In this document: in pieces, positions 9,144 to 20,434 of the stretch
Position numbering within the stretch: position 1 is the stretch's first letter
How the letters are laid out: each line of letters begins with the position of its first letter
DNA from: Streptomyces vietnamensis
Lineage (GTDB): Bacteria > Actinomycetota > Actinomycetes > Streptomycetales > Streptomycetaceae
Direction of reading: 5' to 3'
NCBI RefSeq assembly: GCF_000830005.1
Contig: NZ_CP010407.1
Coordinates: forward strand, 8,320,001 to 8,384,000
DNA: 64,000 nucleotides
Program-made: the position numbers and the translations under genes
The notes under the pieces: model-generated
Seen by the model: only the letters and a program-made list of their open reading frames with translations
What the model was told of the DNA's origin: nothing
Databases searched by the model: none

Positions 9144-11679
<2,536 letters not shown>

Positions 11680-11701
11680 CCACGAGGAAGGCGAACACCG
11701 T

Positions 11702-12985
11702 ATGAACGTGCTGAACACCTCCCTGGCCGAGCTGGACCCCGAGGTCCACGAGGCCCTCCGCGCAGAGCTGCACCGCCAGCAGTCCACCCTCGAGATGATC
11801 GCCTCCGAGAACTTCGCGCCGTCCGCCGTGATGGAGGCCCAAGGGTCGGTCGCGACCAACAAGTACGCCGAGGGCTACCCCGGCCGCCGCTACTACGGCG
11901 GCTGCGAACACGTGGACGTCACCGAGCGCCTGGCCATCGAGCGCGTCAAGTCCCTCTTCGGGGCGGGCTTCGCCAACGTCCAGCCGCACTCGGGCGCACA
12001 GGCGAACACCGCCGTCTTCTTCGCCCTCCTCCAGCCCGGCGACACCGTCCTCGGCCTCGACCTCGCGCACGGCGGCCACCTCACCCACGGCATGCGCATC
12101 AACTACAGCGGCAGGATGCTCGATGTCGTGCCGTACCACGTCTCCGAGACCGACCACCTCGTCGACATGGAGGAGGTCGAGCGGCTCGCCAAGGAACACC
12201 GGCCCAAGATGATCATCGCGGGCTGGTCGGCGTACCCCAGGAAGCTGGACTTCGCGGCCTTCCGGCGGATCGCCGACGAGGTCGGTGCCCTCCTCATGGT
12301 CGACATGGCGCACTTCGCGGGCCTGGTCGCCGCCGGACTGCACCCCAGCCCCGTCCCGCACGCGCACGTGGTCACCACCACGACGCACAAGACGCTCGGC
12401 GGTCCCCGCGGCGGAGTCATCCTCACCGACGACGCCGACCTCGCCAAGAAGATCAACTCGGCGGTGTTCCCCGGCATGCAGGGCGGCCCGCTGGAGCACG
12501 TCATCGCCGCGAAGGCGGTCTCCTTCAAGGTGGCGGCGTCGCCCGGGTTCGCCGAACGCCAGGCCCGTACGCTGGCCGGTGCCCGCCTCCTCGCCGAGCG
12601 CCTCACCCGGTCCGACGCGGCCGCGGCCGGAGTGAAGGTCCTGACGGGCGGCACGGACGTCCACCTCGTCCTCGTCGACCTGCGGGACTCCGAACTCGAC
12701 GGAAAGCGGGCCGAGGACCTGCTGCACGCCATCGGCATCACCGTCAACCGCAACGCCGTCCCCTTCGACCCGCGCCCGCCCATGGTCACCTCCGGCCTGC
12801 GCATCGGAACGCCGGCCCTGGCCACCCGGGGCTTCACGGAGGAGGACTTCGCCGAAGTCGCCGACGTGATCGCACTGGCCCTCAAGCCCGAGCCGGACGT
12901 GGCCGCCCTGCGCGCCCGCACCGAGGCGCTCGCGGCCAAGTACCCGCTCTACCCGCACCTTTCGGAAGACGGAGACGTCCGATGA
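11702..12985 (+). CDS. glyA: Serine hydroxymethyltransferase
   Basis: PLP enzyme that condenses glycine with 5,10-methylene-THF to give serine and THF. Here it would join the two products of sarcosine oxidation. 427 residues; the PLP lysine is Lys230 in [10 protein letters not shown], and the N-terminal [13 protein letters not shown] and [12 protein letters not shown] are family hallmarks. ATG at 11702 with GAGGAAGG upstream; an earlier in-frame GTG lies inside the end of the previous gene. The stop overlaps the soxB start (ATGA). It is probably the pathway-specific copy, with a housekeeping glyA elsewhere. Confidence 0.93.
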
Positions 12986-14214
12986 GCCCCAGCACCCCAG
13001 GCGCCGACCTCCCCGACCACCCCGACTGGCTCTGGCGCGATCCCGAGCCCAAGCGCTCGTACGACGTGGTGATCGTGGGCGGCGGCGGACACGGCCTGGC
13101 CACCGCCCACTACCTGGCGAAGAACCACGGCATCACCGACGTCGCGGTCCTGGAGAAGGGCTGGCTGGGCGGCGGCAACATGGCCCGCAACACCACGATC
13201 ATCCGCTCCAACTACCTGTGGGACGAGAGCGCCGGCATCTACGAGCACGCGCTCAAGCTGTGGGAAGGCCTCGAGGAGGAGCTGGACTACCCGATCCTCT
13301 TCTCCCAGCGCGGCGTGCTGAACCTCGCCCACAGCCTGCAGGACGTCCGCGACAGCGTGCGCCGGGTGGAGGCGAACCGGCTCAACGGCGTGGACGCCGA
13401 GTGGCTGGACGCGGAGCAGGTCAAGGAAGTCTGCCCGATCGTCAACACCTCCCCGGACGTGCGCTACCCGGTCCTCGGCGGCACCTACCAGCCGCGCGCC
13501 GGCATCGCCAAGCACGACTACGTGGCCTGGGGCCTCGCCCGGTCCGCGGACGCCGCCGGCATCGACATCATCCAGAACTGCGAGGTCACCGGCCTGGACG
13601 TGGTCGGCGGCCGGGTGGTCGGCGTCCAGACCACGCGCGGTCCCATCGGCGCGGGCAAGGTGGCCCTGTGCTCGGCCGGCCACACCTCGGTCCTCGCCGC
13701 CATGGCAGGCATCGAACTCCCGCTCCAGAGCCACCCGCTGCAGGCCCTGGTCTCCGAACTCCTGGAGCCGGTCCACCCCACGGTGGTCATGTCCAACGCC
13801 GTCCACGTGTACGTGAGCCAGGCACACAAGGGCGAGCTGGTGATGGGCGCCGGCATCGACGCGTACAACTCCTACACCCAGCGCGGTGCCTTCCACATCA
13901 TCGAAGAGCAGATGTCCGCCGCCCTGGAACTCTTCCCGGTCTTCGCCCGCGCCCACGTGCTGCGCACCTGGGGCGGCATCGTCGACGTCAGCCCGGACGC
14001 CTCGCCGATCGTCGGCCTCAGCCCGGTCGACAACCTCTACCTCAACTGCGGGTGGGGCACGGGCGGTTTTAAGGCCACCCCGGGCGTCGGCTGGGTCTAC
14101 GCCCACACCATCGCCCACGACACCCCCCACCCCCTGAACGCCCCCTTCTCGCTCGACCGTTTCACCACCGGCGCGCTCGTCGACGAGCACGGCGCGGCCG
14201 CGGTGGCCCACTAG
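12982..14214 (+). CDS. soxB: Sarcosine oxidase, beta subunit
   Basis: Catalytic flavin subunit of the heterotetrameric sarcosine oxidase (sarcosine to glycine, with methylene-THF when folate is present, and H2O2). 410 residues with an FAD-binding motif [18 protein letters not shown] near the N-terminus and the C-terminal [16 protein letters not shown]. His178 in GIAKHDYV lies where related beta subunits attach covalent FMN (inference from position). It overlaps glyA by 4 nt and is followed 11 nt later by the delta-alpha fusion gene. Confidence 0.93.
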
Positions 14215-14225
14215 GGAGCCGAACC

Positions 14226-17200
14226 ATGCTGCTCATCCCCTGCCCGTGGTGCGGGCCCCGCGACGAGGCCGAGTTCCACTACGGCGGCCAGGCGCACGTG
14301 CCCTATCCCGAGGATCCCGCCGCCCTCACCGACGAGGAGTGGGCGCGGTACCTGTTCTTCCGCGACAACCCCAAGGGCCCGTTCGCCGAGCGGTGGAGCC
14401 ATGCGGCGGGCTGCCGCAGGTGGTTCAACGCGGTGCGCGACACGGCGACGAACGAGATCCTGGCCGTCTACAAGGCGGGGGAGTCGCGCCCGGAGACGGT
14501 GGAACCGCGTCCGGTCACCTCACCGCCGCGTCCGGTCACCTCACAACCGCGTCCGGTCACCTCTCAGCCGCGCCCGGAATCGTCAGCCCGTCCGGCGACC
14601 GAGGACGAGGCCCGTTCAGGGCCGACGGGGATCCAGGGAGCGGAGCCCCCCGGCGGGGTCGAAGGGGCAGCGCCCCCGGAGGGCGGGACAGGGAGGGGCG
14701 GCAGGGACGACCATCCCTTCCGCACCCCCACCGGCGGCCGGATCGACCGCGGCACCCCCCTCACCTTCACCTTCGACGGCATCCGGTACGAAGGGTTCCG
14801 GGGCGACACCCTCGCCTCCGCCCTCCTCGCCAACGGCGTCGTCCAAGCCGCCACCAGCATCAAGCTGGGCCGCCCCCGCGGCATCTTCTCGGCCGGCGTG
14901 GAGGAACCCAACGCGATCGTCCAGATCGAGGCCCCCTTCCCCGAGCCCATGCTCCCCGCCACCACCATCGAGCTCTACGACGGTCTGGTCGCGAGCAGCC
15001 TCCCGGGCCAGGGACGCCTCGCCACCGAACCGGACCCCGCCCGCTACGACGCCGTACACGCCCACTGCGACCTGCTGGTCGTCGGCGCGGGCCCCGCCGG
15101 CCTCGCGGCCGCCGCGGCGGCCGCGAGGAGCGGCGCACGCGTCGTCCTCGCCGACGACCAGCCGGAACCCGGCGGCAGCCTGCTCGGCACCGGTGAACAC
15201 CTCGACTGGGTGGAGGCGACCCGCGCACGGCTCGAAGCCGCCCCGGAGGTACGCGTCCTGCGGCGCACCACCGTCTTCGGCCACTACGACGACAACCACC
15301 TCCTCGCCGTCGAGCACCGCACCAACCACCTCGGCGCCGAGGCCCCGGAGCACGTCTCCCGCGAGCGCGTCTGGCGGATCCGCGCCCGGCGCGTGGTCCT
15401 CGCGACCGGCGCCCACGAGCGCTCACTGGCGTTCGGAGACAACGACCGCCCCGGTGTGATGCTGGCCGCCTCGGCCCGGACGTACCTCCACCGGTACGCC
15501 GTTCTGCCCGGTCGGCACGCGGTCGTGTTCACCACCAACGACAGCGCCTACGCCGCCGCCCTCGACCTGTCGGCGGCGGGAGTGGACATCGCGGCGATCG
15601 TCGACACCCGGCCCGAACCGGGGGAGTGGGCCGAGCGTGCCCGGTCCGCCGGGATCGAGGTGCTGGCCGGACACGCGGTCACGGCCACGGAGGGCGGGGC
15701 CCACCTCACCGCCGTGACGGTCGCCCCGTACGGGGAGCCCGTGGGACGACGGGAGTTCGCCGTCGACCTGCTCCTGGTCTCCGGCGGCTGGAACCCGGTC
15801 GCGCATCTGTTCAGCCAGGCGGGCGGCAAGCTCCGCCACGACGACGTACTCGGCACGTTCGTGCCCGACAGCTGCCGTCAGGCGGTGGACGTCGCGGGCA
15901 GCGCGAACGGGGCCTTCGATCTCGCCACGACCCTCGCGCAGGGCGCGGCGGCCGGCGCCCGCGCGGTCGAGGCGGAGGGCTACGCCGCCGAGGCGCCGGC
16001 CCTCCCGGCCGTCGCCGCCCAGCCGCACACCCCGCCCATGCAGGTGTTCGCCGTCCCCACCGGCACCGGAGCCCCCCGGTTCGTCGACCTCCAGCGCGAT
16101 GTCACGGTCGACGACCTGGCGCGGGCGACCGGGGCGGGCCTGCGCTCGGTGGAGCACACCAAGCGCTACACCACGGCCGGCACCGCCAACGACCAGGGCA
16201 AGACGGGCGGGGTCCTGACGAGCGGGATCGTCGCCGAACTCCTCGGCGTGGACATCTCGGCGCTCGGCCTGCCCACGTTCCGGCCGCCGTACACCCCCGT
16301 CTCCTTCGCCACCCTCGCCGGCCGCGACCGCGGCGCGTTGTCCGACCCGATCCGCACGACCGCCGTCCACGCGTGGCACGTCGCGCACGGCGCCCTGTTC
16401 GAGAACGTCGGCCAGTGGAAGCGGCCCTGGTACTACCCGCAGGACGGCGAGGACATGGACGCGGCCGTGCTGCGCGAGTGCCGCGCCGCCCGCGAGGGCG
16501 TGGCCTTCATGGACGCCTCCACCCTCGGCAAGATCGACGTGCAGGGCCCGGACGCCGCGGTCTTCCTCGACCGGCTCTACACCAACATGATGAGCACCCT
16601 GAAGGTCGGCATGATCCGCTACGGCGTCATGAGCCGCCTGGACGGCATGATCTTCGACGACGGCACGGTCATCCGCGTCGCCCAGGACCGCTTCCTGGTC
16701 ACCACCACGACGGGCAACGCGGCCGCCGTACTGGACTGGATGGAGGAGTGGCTGCAGACCGAGTGGCCCGAACTCCGCGTCCACTGCACTTCCGTCACCG
16801 AGCAGTGGGCCACCGTCGCCCTGGTCGGCCCGCGTTCTCGCGAGGTGCTCGGCTCGCTCGCGCCCCGACTTGCGGTCGCCAACGACGACTTCCCGTTCAT
16901 GGCGTGGCGGGAGACGACGGTCGCGGGCATCGAGGCGAGGGTGTGCCGGATCAGCTTCTCCGGCGAACTCGCCTATGAGATCAACGTGTCACCGTGGGAG
17001 GCCCTCGCCCTGTGGGAGGCGCTGTACGAGGCGGGCGCCCCGCACGGCATCACTCCGTACGGGACGGAGACCATGCACGTCCTGCGCGCGGAGAAGGGGT
17101 ACCCGATCATCGGCCAGGACACCGACGGCACGGTCACCCCGCAGGACCTCGGCATGAGCTGGGCGGTGTCCAAGAAGAAGCCCGACTTCATCGGCAAGCG

Positions 17201-17525
17201 CTCCTACGCCCGCGCCGACACCGTCCGCCCCGACCGCAAGCACCTCGTCGGCCTCCTCCCCGAAGACCCGGCCGCCCTCCTCCCCGAGGGCACCCACCTG
17301 GTCGCCGACGGCGAACTGCCCGCCCCGCCCGTCCCGATGCTCGGGCACGTCACCTCCAGCTACCGCAGCGCGGCGCTCGGCCGGACCTTCGCGCTCGCCC
17401 TGGTCAAGGGCGGCCGGGACCGCATCGGCGAACGCCTCTACGCACCCGTCGGCGACCGGCTGCTGCCGGTGACCGTCGCAAGCCCCGTCCTCTACGACCC
17501 CGAGGGAGCCCGCCGCGATGGCTGA
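14226..17525 (+). CDS. soxA: Sarcosine oxidase delta-alpha fusion (SoxD-SoxA) joined by a proline-rich repeat linker
   Basis: One uninterrupted 1099-residue frame holds two subunits that are normally separate proteins. Residues 1-90 are SoxD, with the four zinc ligands Cys6, Cys9, His59 and Cys63. Residues about 91-160 are a low-complexity linker starting with RPVTSPP/RPVTSQP repeats. From about residue 162 (HPFRTPTGGRIDRGTPLTF) it is SoxA: a ferredoxin-like part, a nucleotide-binding motif (LLVVGAGPAGLAAAAAAA, near 280) and a C-terminal GcvT-like folate domain (FSGELAYEINV, RAEKGYPIIGQDTDGT). No stop or frameshift separates the halves. A GTG or ATG start inside the linker is not obvious. It overlaps soxG by 8 nt. 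Confidence 0.9.
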   Translation: MLLIPCPWCGPRDEAEFHYGGQAHVPYPEDPAALTDEEWARYLFFRDNPKGPFAERWSHAAGCRRWFNAVRDTATNEILAVYKAGESRPETVEPRPVTSPPRPVTSQPRPVTSQPRPESSARPATEDEARSGPTGIQGAEPPGGVEGAAPPEGGTGRGGRDDHPFRTPTGGRIDRGTPLTFTFDGIRYEGFRGDTLASALLANGVVQAATSIKLGRPRGIFSAGVEEPNAIVQIEAPFPEPMLPATTIELYDGLVASSLPGQGRLATEPDPARYDAVHAHCDLLVVGAGPAGLAAAAAAARSGARVVLADDQPEPGGSLLGTGEHLDWVEATRARLEAAPEVRVLRRTTVFGHYDDNHLLAVEHRTNHLGAEAPEHVSRERVWRIRARRVVLATGAHERSLAFGDNDRPGVMLAASARTYLHRYAVLPGRHAVVFTTNDSAYAAALDLSAAGVDIAAIVDTRPEPGEWAERARSAGIEVLAGHAVTATEGGAHLTAVTVAPYGEPVGRREFAVDLLLVSGGWNPVAHLFSQAGGKLRHDDVLGTFVPDSCRQAVDVAGSANGAFDLATTLAQGAAAGARAVEAEGYAAEAPALPAVAAQPHTPPMQVFAVPTGTGAPRFVDLQRDVTVDDLARATGAGLRSVEHTKRYTTAGTANDQGKTGGVLTSGIVAELLGVDISALGLPTFRPPYTPVSFATLAGRDRGALSDPIRTTAVHAWHVAHGALFENVGQWKRPWYYPQDGEDMDAAVLRECRAAREGVAFMDASTLGKIDVQGPDAAVFLDRLYTNMMSTLKVGMIRYGVMSRLDGMIFDDGTVIRVAQDRFLVTTTTGNAAAVLDWMEEWLQTEWPELRVHCTSVTEQWATVALVGPRSREVLGSLAPRLAVANDDFPFMAWRETTVAGIEARVCRISFSGELAYEINVSPWEALALWEALYEAGAPHGITPYGTETMHVLRAEKGYPIIGQDTDGTVTPQDLGMSWAVSKKKPDFIGKRSYARADTVRPDRKHLVGLLPEDPAALLPEGTHLVADGELPAPPVPMLGHVTSSYRSAALGRTFALALVKGGRDRIGERLYAPVGDRLLPVTVASPVLYDPEGARRDG
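14505..14567 (+). repeat. 21-bp tandem repeat encoding the SoxD-SoxA linker
   Basis: Three in-frame 21-bp units (14505-14525, 14526-14546, 14547-14567) plus a degenerate fourth, each beginning CCGCGTCCGGTCACCTC and encoding PRPVTSP/Q. Because each unit is seven codons, copy-number change would alter linker length without a frameshift. Confidence 0.9.
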
Positions 17526-18120
17526 CACCGCTCCGACCGCACGGCAGCGCAGCCCGCTGGCGCATGCCGCCGACCGCCTGGCCGCCGCGACGCGCTCCTC
17601 GGGCGGCGCGGTCCGCCTGGCCGAAGTCCCCTTCCTGGCCCAGCTGAACGTCCGCCTCGACGCCAAGAGCCCGGCGGCGGACGCCGTCGGACTCGCCCTG
17701 GGACTCCCACTGCCCCTGGAGCCCGACACCGTCGTACGCGTGGGGGAGCTGGGCGCGGTGTGGCTCGGCCCCGACGAATGGCTGGTGGTGGGCCCGCCCG
17801 GCACCCAGCGGGACCTGGAGAGCAGGATCCGCTCGGCGGCCGGGGACGAGCACGTCTCCGTCACCGACGTCTCCGCCCAGCGCACCACCCTCCTGGTCGG
17901 CGGACCGCGCGCCCGCGACCTGCTGTCCCACGGCTGCCGGTTGGACCTGCACCCGCGCGTCTTCGGCCCCGGCCGTTCGGCCCAGACGACGCTGGCCCGC
18001 ACCCAGGTCGTCCTGGTGGCCCGGGACGAGCCCAGGGCGGGGTTCTGGGTGCTCGTGCGCTCCTCCTTCGCCGGCTACCTGACGGACTGGCTCCTTGACG
18101 CGGCCGTGGAATACGGGTGA
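17518..18120 (+). CDS. soxG: Sarcosine oxidase, gamma subunit
   Basis: Small structural subunit of heterotetrameric sarcosine oxidase, 200 residues. It has the GcvT-like motifs of the family: [15 protein letters not shown] near residue 80, [26 protein letters not shown], and [20 protein letters not shown] at the end. It starts inside the last codons of soxA (8-nt overlap) and is followed immediately by a strong hairpin, so it closes the operon that began at 9241. Confidence 0.9.
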
Positions 18121-18214: not shown

Positions 18215-19012
18215 TCAGCCCACGTAGCCCATCCGGTGGCTGATCTCCTCGGCGCCCTGGACCAGCAGGGGTGCGAGCTCGTGGACGCGCTCCTCGGTGA
18301 AGCGGTACGCGGGGCCGGAGGCGCTGAGGGCGGCGAGGGTCTCGCCCTGGTGGGAACGGATCGGGGCCGCGACGGCGTGCAGTCCGAGCTCGAACTCCTC
18401 CAGCGTCACCGCGTACCCGCGCTCCCGCGCCTCGGCGAGGTTCTTCTCCAGCTTGGTCCTGGCGGTCAGGGTGTGCGGCGTCAGCTTCTTCAACCCGGAT
18501 GCCGCGAGCACGCCGGCGCGCTCCTTCGCCGGCAGATGGGCGAGCAGGATCTTGCCGCTGGACGTCGCGTGCACCGGGGTGAGCTGCCCGACCCAGTTGT
18601 GCGTGCCGACCGCGCCCGGGCCGCGTACCTGGTAGAGGTTGACCGCGTAATGCTCCTGCAGGACGGCGATGTTGACGGTCTCGCCGATCTCCTCGCTGAG
18701 CCGCTCGCACACCGGCCGGCCCTGCTGTGTGATGTCGAGACGGCCCGTGACCGCCCCCGCCAGGCGCACGATCCCGAAGCCCAGCCGGTACTTGCCCCGT
18801 TCGGCCGCCTGCTCGACCAGACCGCGCGCCTCCAGCGCGCCGAGCAGGCGGAACGCGGTCGACTTGTGGACGTCGATCTCGGCGGCGACCTCGCTGACGC
18901 CCGCCTCACCGCGCTGGGCGAGGATCTCCAGGACGCTGACGGCACGGTCGACGGACTGCACCCCGTTCACTGCGGGAGCCTGTGTTTCGCCATGTGCCGA
19001 CTGGTTGCTCAT
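18215..19012 (-). CDS. IclR-family transcriptional regulator
   Basis: 265-residue regulator: an N-terminal winged helix-turn-helix ([41 protein letters not shown], residues about 20-70) and a C-terminal effector domain with [17 protein letters not shown] and [20 protein letters not shown]. It is divergent from sdaA and adjacent to the sarcosine oxidase operon. GTTGC-N7-GCAAC covers its own start codon, and related elements lie at the purU/betB and dimethylglycine oxidase promoters. I infer local control of the choline-to-pyruvate genes, probably as a repressor. The ligand cannot be read from sequence. Confidence 0.88.
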
Positions 19013-19020
19013 GGTGCAAC
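19004..19020. promoter_or_regulatory. Inverted repeat GTTGC-N7-GCAAC over the IclR-family start codon
   Basis: GTTGC (19004-19008) and GCAAC (19016-19020) flank the ATG of the regulator in the 51-bp divergent gap to sdaA. The arms resemble the halves of GTTGCGCAAC at 9175-9184, but the spacing differs, so a shared binding protein is only a possibility. Confidence 0.4.
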
Positions 19021-19063
19021 TATAAGCAAGGTCGGATCTCTAGCCCCCACAAGGAGTCCTCCC

Positions 19064-20434
<1,371 letters not shown>

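Follow-up and report, generated by a model that had tools for sequence, protein, structure and literature searches.

A dispersed Streptomyces repeat as the probable source of the tether in a fused sarcosine oxidase delta-alpha subunit

Introduction

Heterotetrameric sarcosine oxidase oxidises sarcosine with flavin adenine dinucleotide (FAD), flavin mononucleotide (FMN), nicotinamide adenine dinucleotide (NAD) and zinc. In a 64,000-nucleotide stretch of Streptomyces vietnamensis DNA (NCBI RefSeq assembly GCF_000830005.1, contig NZ_CP010407.1, positions 8,320,001 to 8,384,000 of the forward strand; hereafter the window), the delta and alpha subunits of such an enzyme are encoded by a single frame, soxDA. 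This raises the question of how two subunit genes were joined and from what their linker was made. Our answer is that soxDA is very probably a delta-alpha fusion in a three-gene enzyme whose tether is a domesticated repeat. In this way the gene hints at a route by which 'junk' DNA can come to join enzyme subunits.

Results

The soxDA frame encodes 1099 residues without an internal stop and comprises the following parts. Positions are those of the window; loci (L), genomes (G) and proteins (P) carry our own numbers.

14226..17525, + strand: soxDA, fused delta-linker-alpha gene of 1099 codons; a single open frame with SoxD and SoxA models above cut-off
14226..14477, + strand: SoxD domain, residues 1-84, with C6, C9, H59 and C63; PF04267 at residues 3-84, ungapped against 1vrq_D
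14484..14717, + strand: linker, residues 87-164, the stretch separating the SoxD and SoxA matches
14505..14577, + strand: 21-bp tandem array, 3.5 copies, with PRPVTSQ as the translated unit; Tandem Repeats Finder (TRF) score 118
14583..14710, + strand: in-frame part of the linker that is a dispersed Streptomyces repeat, diverged but almost complete; nhmmer E 2.4e-17
14718..17525, + strand: SoxA part, residue 165 to the stop; 1070.9 bits to 1vrq_A, TIGR01372

At the SoxD end, PF04267 matched residues 3-84 with E 1.5e-37 and TIGR01374 scored 127.1 bits (cut-off 116.5). TIGR01372 scored 1268.4 bits (cut-off 1164) in the SoxA part, running to the stop. With both models above cut-off in one frame, the SoxD-linker-SoxA fusion in the gene order B-DA-G, as given in the original prediction, is borne out. 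Among solved structures, the alpha part was closest in sequence to 1vrq_A/2gag_A and the delta part to 1vrq_D/2gag_D. Residues 1-91 were aligned without gaps to PDB 1vrq_D, with C6, C9, H59 and C63, which we take to be the zinc ligands, at matching positions. All four were conserved without exception in the 19 fused proteins that were aligned, in agreement with the intact ligand set that had been predicted. In the genome of the window soxDA was the sole SoxD match, so no separate delta gene was found in that search. The predicted structure of the fused protein was uninformative (mean predicted local distance difference test score, pLDDT, 37.8; predicted template modelling score, pTM, 0.26).

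The linker had been described as Pro-rich and about 70 residues long. It holds 17 Pro among the 79 residues 87-165, and its length is slightly greater, ~78 residues. The 21-bp tandem units that had been noted in it were recovered by TRF at 14505-14577 (3.5 copies, 90% matches), yet they make up just the 5' third of the linker. The remainder is mostly translated dispersed repeat, a copy of which (14583-14710) accounts for about half of the linker.

The distribution of the fusion was examined by searching 199 Streptomyces genomes for SoxD, which was found in 55 of them, at 61 places. Besides the window, 28 places were fused in frame, another 30 had soxD and soxA in two separate frames and were scored unfused, and two were undecidable (L037, at a contig end, and L061, with a run of N in soxD). 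Six genomes (G001, G033, G063, G104, G108 and G125) have two sox operons each, one fused and one unfused. A second set, overlapping with the first, consisted of the best 80 of 573 confirmed stretches related to the window; 40 were fused, 36 unfused and four without a SoxD match, three of the last (L121, L130, L131) beginning at contig ends. Fused proteins are also held in public databases (best 120 of 8000 matches) as delta, alpha or ferredoxin, names that hide one subunit.

A SoxA tree was constructed with FastTree from 141 of 156 loci, omitting those with identical SoxA, a SoxA part of <=850 residues or an identity of <=57%. It contained a 70-row clade of Streptomyces and close genera (Shimodaira-Hasegawa-like support 100) made up of 69 fused rows and L061, the only row in it scored unfused. 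On this tree the fused label changed 4 times, versus a mean of 47 times in shuffles. The search for single SoxD plus SoxA frames in other genomes, as had been proposed, thus revealed a fusion that is clade-wide and no local oddity. Sequencing error or a frameshift as the source of the fusion was ruled out, since 69 of the 70 clade rows are fused and the 70th carries the run of N; L037, cut off by its contig end, is outside the tree.

Two further fused loci, L119 and L122, are, like L061, excluded from all counts over 69 rows given below. Streptantibioticus rubrisoli (L122, 4001-7273) groups with two unfused relatives (support 99). Given these relatives and a linker of unrelated sequence, its fusion seems to have arisen independently; an older fusion followed by re-splitting may also be compatible with the change count. 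The placement of Actinacidiphila oryziradicis (L119, 4001-7246) in the SoxA tree is not settled. L229, from another class of Actinomycetota, has a SoxD-SoxA frame at 46%/35% identity with an Arg-rich repetitive linker, which may be due to chance in GC-rich DNA or be another fusion.

Many fused linkers have in common a module reading like ARPAFEDEA..SGPTG..GAEPPGGVEGAEPLQDGTGRGGGGE. Its DNA is that of a dispersed Streptomyces repeat of ~140 bp, elsewhere mostly intergenic, several copies of which translate straight into the module (e.g. SARPAFEDEARSGPKRGSGGGSPQKATGVEGAEPLEDGTGRGGGGE). The exact 22-mer CCGTCCGGCGTTTGAGGACGAG was present in 70 of the 198 Streptomyces genomes in which it was counted, the highest number of copies being 110 (G079). 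It was also present in 17 of the 69 clade linkers. The reversed 22-mer, used as a control, gave 0 in all 198 genomes. Two genomes rich in the 22-mer, G051 (57 copies) and G109 (60 copies), gave no SoxD match, so the repeats need not stem from soxDA.

The genomic setting of the repeat was studied in Streptomyces cyaneochromogenes (G049). The 125-nt linker of its fused locus L063 matched 62 pieces of this genome including itself (40 of 140 candidates scored), and besides L063 itself 18 pieces were near full length at 84-89% identity. In an alignment of 30 repeat places a common core was flanked by mostly unrelated sequence, many copies being also alike over ~30 nt upstream. Following exclusion of the sox copy, 28 of the best 29 G049 copies lay outside genes as predicted by a crude codon-usage caller; three of the 28 ran 5-18 nt into the end of a gene. 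The remaining copy lies inside a tetratricopeptide repeat (TPR) protein gene (L278:1323-2960), where it is translated near residues 49-88. When 305 candidates of similar length were searched with residues 48-92 of this protein, the TPR protein itself was the only match at E <= 0.001, so a spread of translated repeat in proteins is not shown.

A hidden Markov model (HMM) of the repeat was built from 20 dispersed copies of a genome other than that of the window, leaving out its sox copy. Using nhmmer, the window was matched at 14583-14710 with E 2.4e-17, over model positions 2-138 of 142. Of 81 fused loci, 54 (the window among them) had a linker match at E < 1e-3, and 60 at E < 1; no match was obtained in the 75 loci scored unfused, which include L061. 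Five fused loci (L087, L089, L110, L119 and L228) also matched outside the linker. Among unique clade loci, 54 of 69 linkers were matched, versus 0 of 69 for each of two SoxA segments and for shuffled linkers. By blastn, repeat matches were obtained for 61 of 69 linkers and for none of the 69 shuffled ones; SoxA control segments were also matched by blastn, and the HMM was therefore relied on.

In the genome of the window the exact 22-mer is absent. The soxDA linker is the best, and the only near-full-length, copy of the repeat that was detected there with 40 of 56 candidates scored; soxDA thus holds the best detected copy of a family found elsewhere in that genome only as pieces. Many mostly intergenic copies, as expected of a small dispersed palindromic repeat, were found in relatives, and only partial further copies in the window's genome. 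A search of PLSDB gave no plasmid match to the repeat. A match to mir-550 in Rfam lay outside the repeat and far under the gathering score, and was taken as chance. For the copies in L063, L256 and L258 an end-to-end stem (CCCGTCC/GGACGGG) with inner hairpins was predicted, at z of only -1.5 to -1.8 versus shuffles. The window copy was no more stable than shuffles (z +0.44) and its frame is open. Modest as these z-scores are, they would agree with loss of the fold in a copy that retained its open frame.

The point of entry was sought in the unfused relatives. In L123, L126, L127, L174 and L190, soxD ends and soxA starts in an ATGA overlap. In several fused loci the codons following the repeat resemble those past the soxA start (ACC CAG CCG TTC), and stop and start are gone. 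Taken together, the overlap in the unfused loci and the soxA-like codons past the repeat point to replacement of the overlap by the repeat, the origin that we prefer by inspection. In 18 near-full-length dispersed copies, the frame used in soxDA is open in 12 and the third forward frame in 0.

The fused clade linkers come in 37 lengths, from 33 to 136 residues. Length change by whole 21-bp units, which had been predicted to leave the frame intact, was observed in P0004 (1092 residues), which has exactly one unit of 7 residues fewer than the ~97%-identical P0001-P0003. This unit is not the chief source of change, however, as length variation in the relatives lies largely in other sequence. Linker content changes often between close relatives. 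Six loci that are 94-96% identical over SoxD plus SoxA have linkers only 69-90% identical, with large in-frame insertions. The L095 linker matches a dispersed copy from another species (L275) at 98% identity over 100 nt, and the linkers of its three closest SoxA relatives at 79-82% over 149-176 nt, lengths that differ from that of the L275 match. When linkers were assigned to seven types, 29 changes were counted over the 69 tree rows.

The L074 linker carries the exact 21-base core GGGGCGCGGGGAACTGCGCGA of a second repeat, which is dispersed in 29 of 61 genomes with up to 641 exact copies (G059) and 2 in the window's genome. At best, L111 and L138 have 7 mismatches to this core; with L074 they have a translated pattern in common (AGSG then AAPEGAR), which requires three changes on the tree. 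Linkers such as those of L070 and L077 contain a candidate further repeat type.

soxDA lies between the genes for the beta and gamma subunits:

12982..14214, + strand: soxB, sarcosine oxidase beta subunit; TIGR01373 647.3 bits, cut-off 529.45
17518..18120, + strand: soxG, gamma subunit, with an 8-nt overlap with the end of soxDA; PF04268 84.9 bits, cut-off 21

For soxG, TIGR01375 scored 112 bits, under the NCBIfam cut-off of 143.95, yet the Pfam cut-off was exceeded. The neighbourhood reads FAD/GcvT-type protein, glyA, soxB, soxDA, soxG, IclR-type regulator and L-serine ammonia-lyase, the first two at 9244-12985 and the last two at 18215-20434. We read the FAD/GcvT-type protein as dimethylglycine-oxidase-like, no NCBIfam model being above cut-off; the regulator is on the opposite strand, and its best model, BhcR, is below cut-off. 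By annotation, a route from methylglycines via serine to pyruvate is plausible for this neighbourhood.

Discussion

The events that we favour would have run as follows. A repeat of ~140 bp entered the soxD/soxA junction at the site of the ATGA stop/start overlap, with loss of the stop of soxD and of the start of soxA, and would have linked the two frames through the forward frame of the repeat that is open in most near-full-length dispersed copies. As a flexible tether, the linker would need only a kept frame and at least ~33 residues, and could be freely remodelled: 21-bp units could slip, hairpin pieces could be gained or lost, and repeats could be inserted anew or copied in by ectopic gene conversion. 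The product would be one chain of ~115 kDa in which delta and alpha fold like the separate subunits, and the fusion would keep delta in 1:1 supply beside alpha. The complex would be assembled from three genes, soxB, soxDA and soxG.

Several observations weigh against this account. Of the first branches, L227 lacks an HMM or blastn match and L226 has only a marginal blastn match (E 2.5e-5); with the repeat nearly or wholly lacking in both, it may have entered a pre-existing linker. In the clade, 15 of 69 linkers are without an HMM match and 8 of 69 without an HMM or blastn match, and blastn gave repeat matches in both sets of 69 SoxA control segments as well, 12 in one and 3 in the other. The linkers of L119 and L122 found only themselves and short pieces in their own genomes (candidates scored: 40 of 107 for L119, 40 of 301 for L122); repeats as the cause of these two fusions are thus unsupported by the genome search, and repeats do not seem to be needed for fusion. 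With the full repeat as query, the window's genome gave the linker (80% to one dispersed copy) and only 4 partial pieces (40 of 56 candidates scored). In 9 of the 18 near-full-length copies of the repeat no stop interrupts the next forward frame. In L120 (Streptomyces mexicanus Marseille-Q0842) no SoxD was found in the 4 kb upstream of SoxA; at 88% SoxA identity to the window this locus probably belongs to the fused clade. The linker types are crude groupings by pattern, and support is weak for 43 of the 138 inner branches in the SoxA tree. Finally, translation of soxDA as one chain is inferred from its frame. As a separate observation, another gene is seemingly joined upstream of SoxA in L120, by rearrangement or assembly.

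The alternative closest to these points is that fusion came first, once the stop of soxD had been lost and the frame had drifted at the ATGA overlap, and that repeats later invaded a tolerant linker. Fused L226 and L227, both first branches, and L231 have no repeat-HMM match, and L119 and L122 are fused through linkers without a detected dispersed repeat. A duplicated old tail would fit the likeness of the 21-bp unit PRPVTSQ to the PRPVTS C-terminus of unfused SoxD in L137 and L144, and the unit may be such a duplicate. Against this order of events, blastn matches to repeat copies exist in other early branches, L222 (E 9.4e-18) and L224 (E 2.8e-16), even if their repeat-HMM matches are weak (E 0.26 and 0.041). 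We regard fusion before repeat entry as a serious contender, somewhat short of even chances. Far less credit is due to the idea that GC-rich, low-complexity DNA has merely converged on a likeness to the repeat. The sequence is indeed very GC-rich, and the blastn matches in SoxA control segments could be taken in its favour; but the HMM separates 54 of 69 linkers from three controls at 0 of 69 each, the window match covers nearly the whole model, and an exact 22-mer that occurs tens of times in some genomes, and whose reversed control does not occur, is found in 17 of the 69 linkers. Convergence is therefore highly improbable.

It is also conceivable that the linker is no tether in the mature enzyme, alpha being made from an internal start or the chain being cut in the linker, so that four subunits result. 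Flexible linkers are often protease-sensitive, and 42 of 69 clade linkers contain some in-frame ATG, GTG or TTG, with a Shine-Dalgarno-like motif in 9 of 69. However, 27 of 69 lack any in-frame start codon from residue 87 up to the alpha core, ATG is absent in 63 of 69, and the starts with a Shine-Dalgarno-like motif lie at differing positions. In the window the linker has one in-frame GTG (codon 92), without such a motif. Nor would separate translation require that the frame be kept over 37 lengths. We consider internal starts or cleavage unlikely. A frame kept over all these lengths, with a row containing a run of N as the only exception, is what a translated tether would predict, although it is no proof of a single chain.

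If entry of the repeat at the ATGA overlap is indeed the origin of the tether, soxDA offers a case, traceable over dozens of species, in which non-coding repeats were incorporated into a conserved metabolic enzyme by joining two of its subunits. It would further provide a natural series of linkers of 33-136 residues for probing what the tether between zinc subunit and alpha requires. More tentatively, and as a conjecture that we judge less likely than not, the soxD-soxA joint could be a living interface between repeats and protein, into which dispersed repeats of more than one family are copied repeatedly, by ectopic gene conversion or reinsertion and always in frame, so that the tether draws on the repeat pool of the genome. 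Insertion at ATGA junctions could then be a general route to subunit fusion in Streptomyces, and the TPR protein of L278 would be a second case of a repeat turned protein.

In the literature listings, most subscription papers being outside them, no description of a SoxDA fusion was recognised. Nothing matching this Streptomyces repeat was recognised there either, and its sequence strings were found in no paper. A repeat serving as the welded joint of two enzyme subunits, clade-wide and often remodelled, was likewise not found in the literature searched. Heterotetrameric sarcosine oxidase (1vrq/1x31 and 2gag/2gah) is alike in its domains and in the gene order B-D-A-G, delta aligning without gaps over 91 residues and alpha scoring 1071 bits. 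Its delta and alpha are separate chains; here they form one frame with a linker of 33-136 residues in the clade. SoxA and SoxD are above curated cut-offs and soxB and soxG are adjacent, as in that class, but four separate chains are not encoded.

According to two reports, small repeats in frame inside bacterial genes are already known (PMC10969869, PMC2759123). The Rickettsia palindromic elements are dispersed repeats of ~150 bp translated in frame within protein-coding genes (PMC10969869), and the soxDA repeat resembles them, by analogy only, in being translated inside a metabolic gene. It differs from what is described there in sitting between what are two genes in relatives, in its Streptomyces host and in a content that varies among close species. 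ERIC/RU elements are small intergenic repeats with open reading frames that have been fused in frame to enterobacterial reading frames (PMC2759123), a likeness that extends to soxDA. In the portion of that report available, RU lie at one end of, or are added to, single proteins, whereas the soxDA repeat forms the internal linker of two subunits throughout a large clade.

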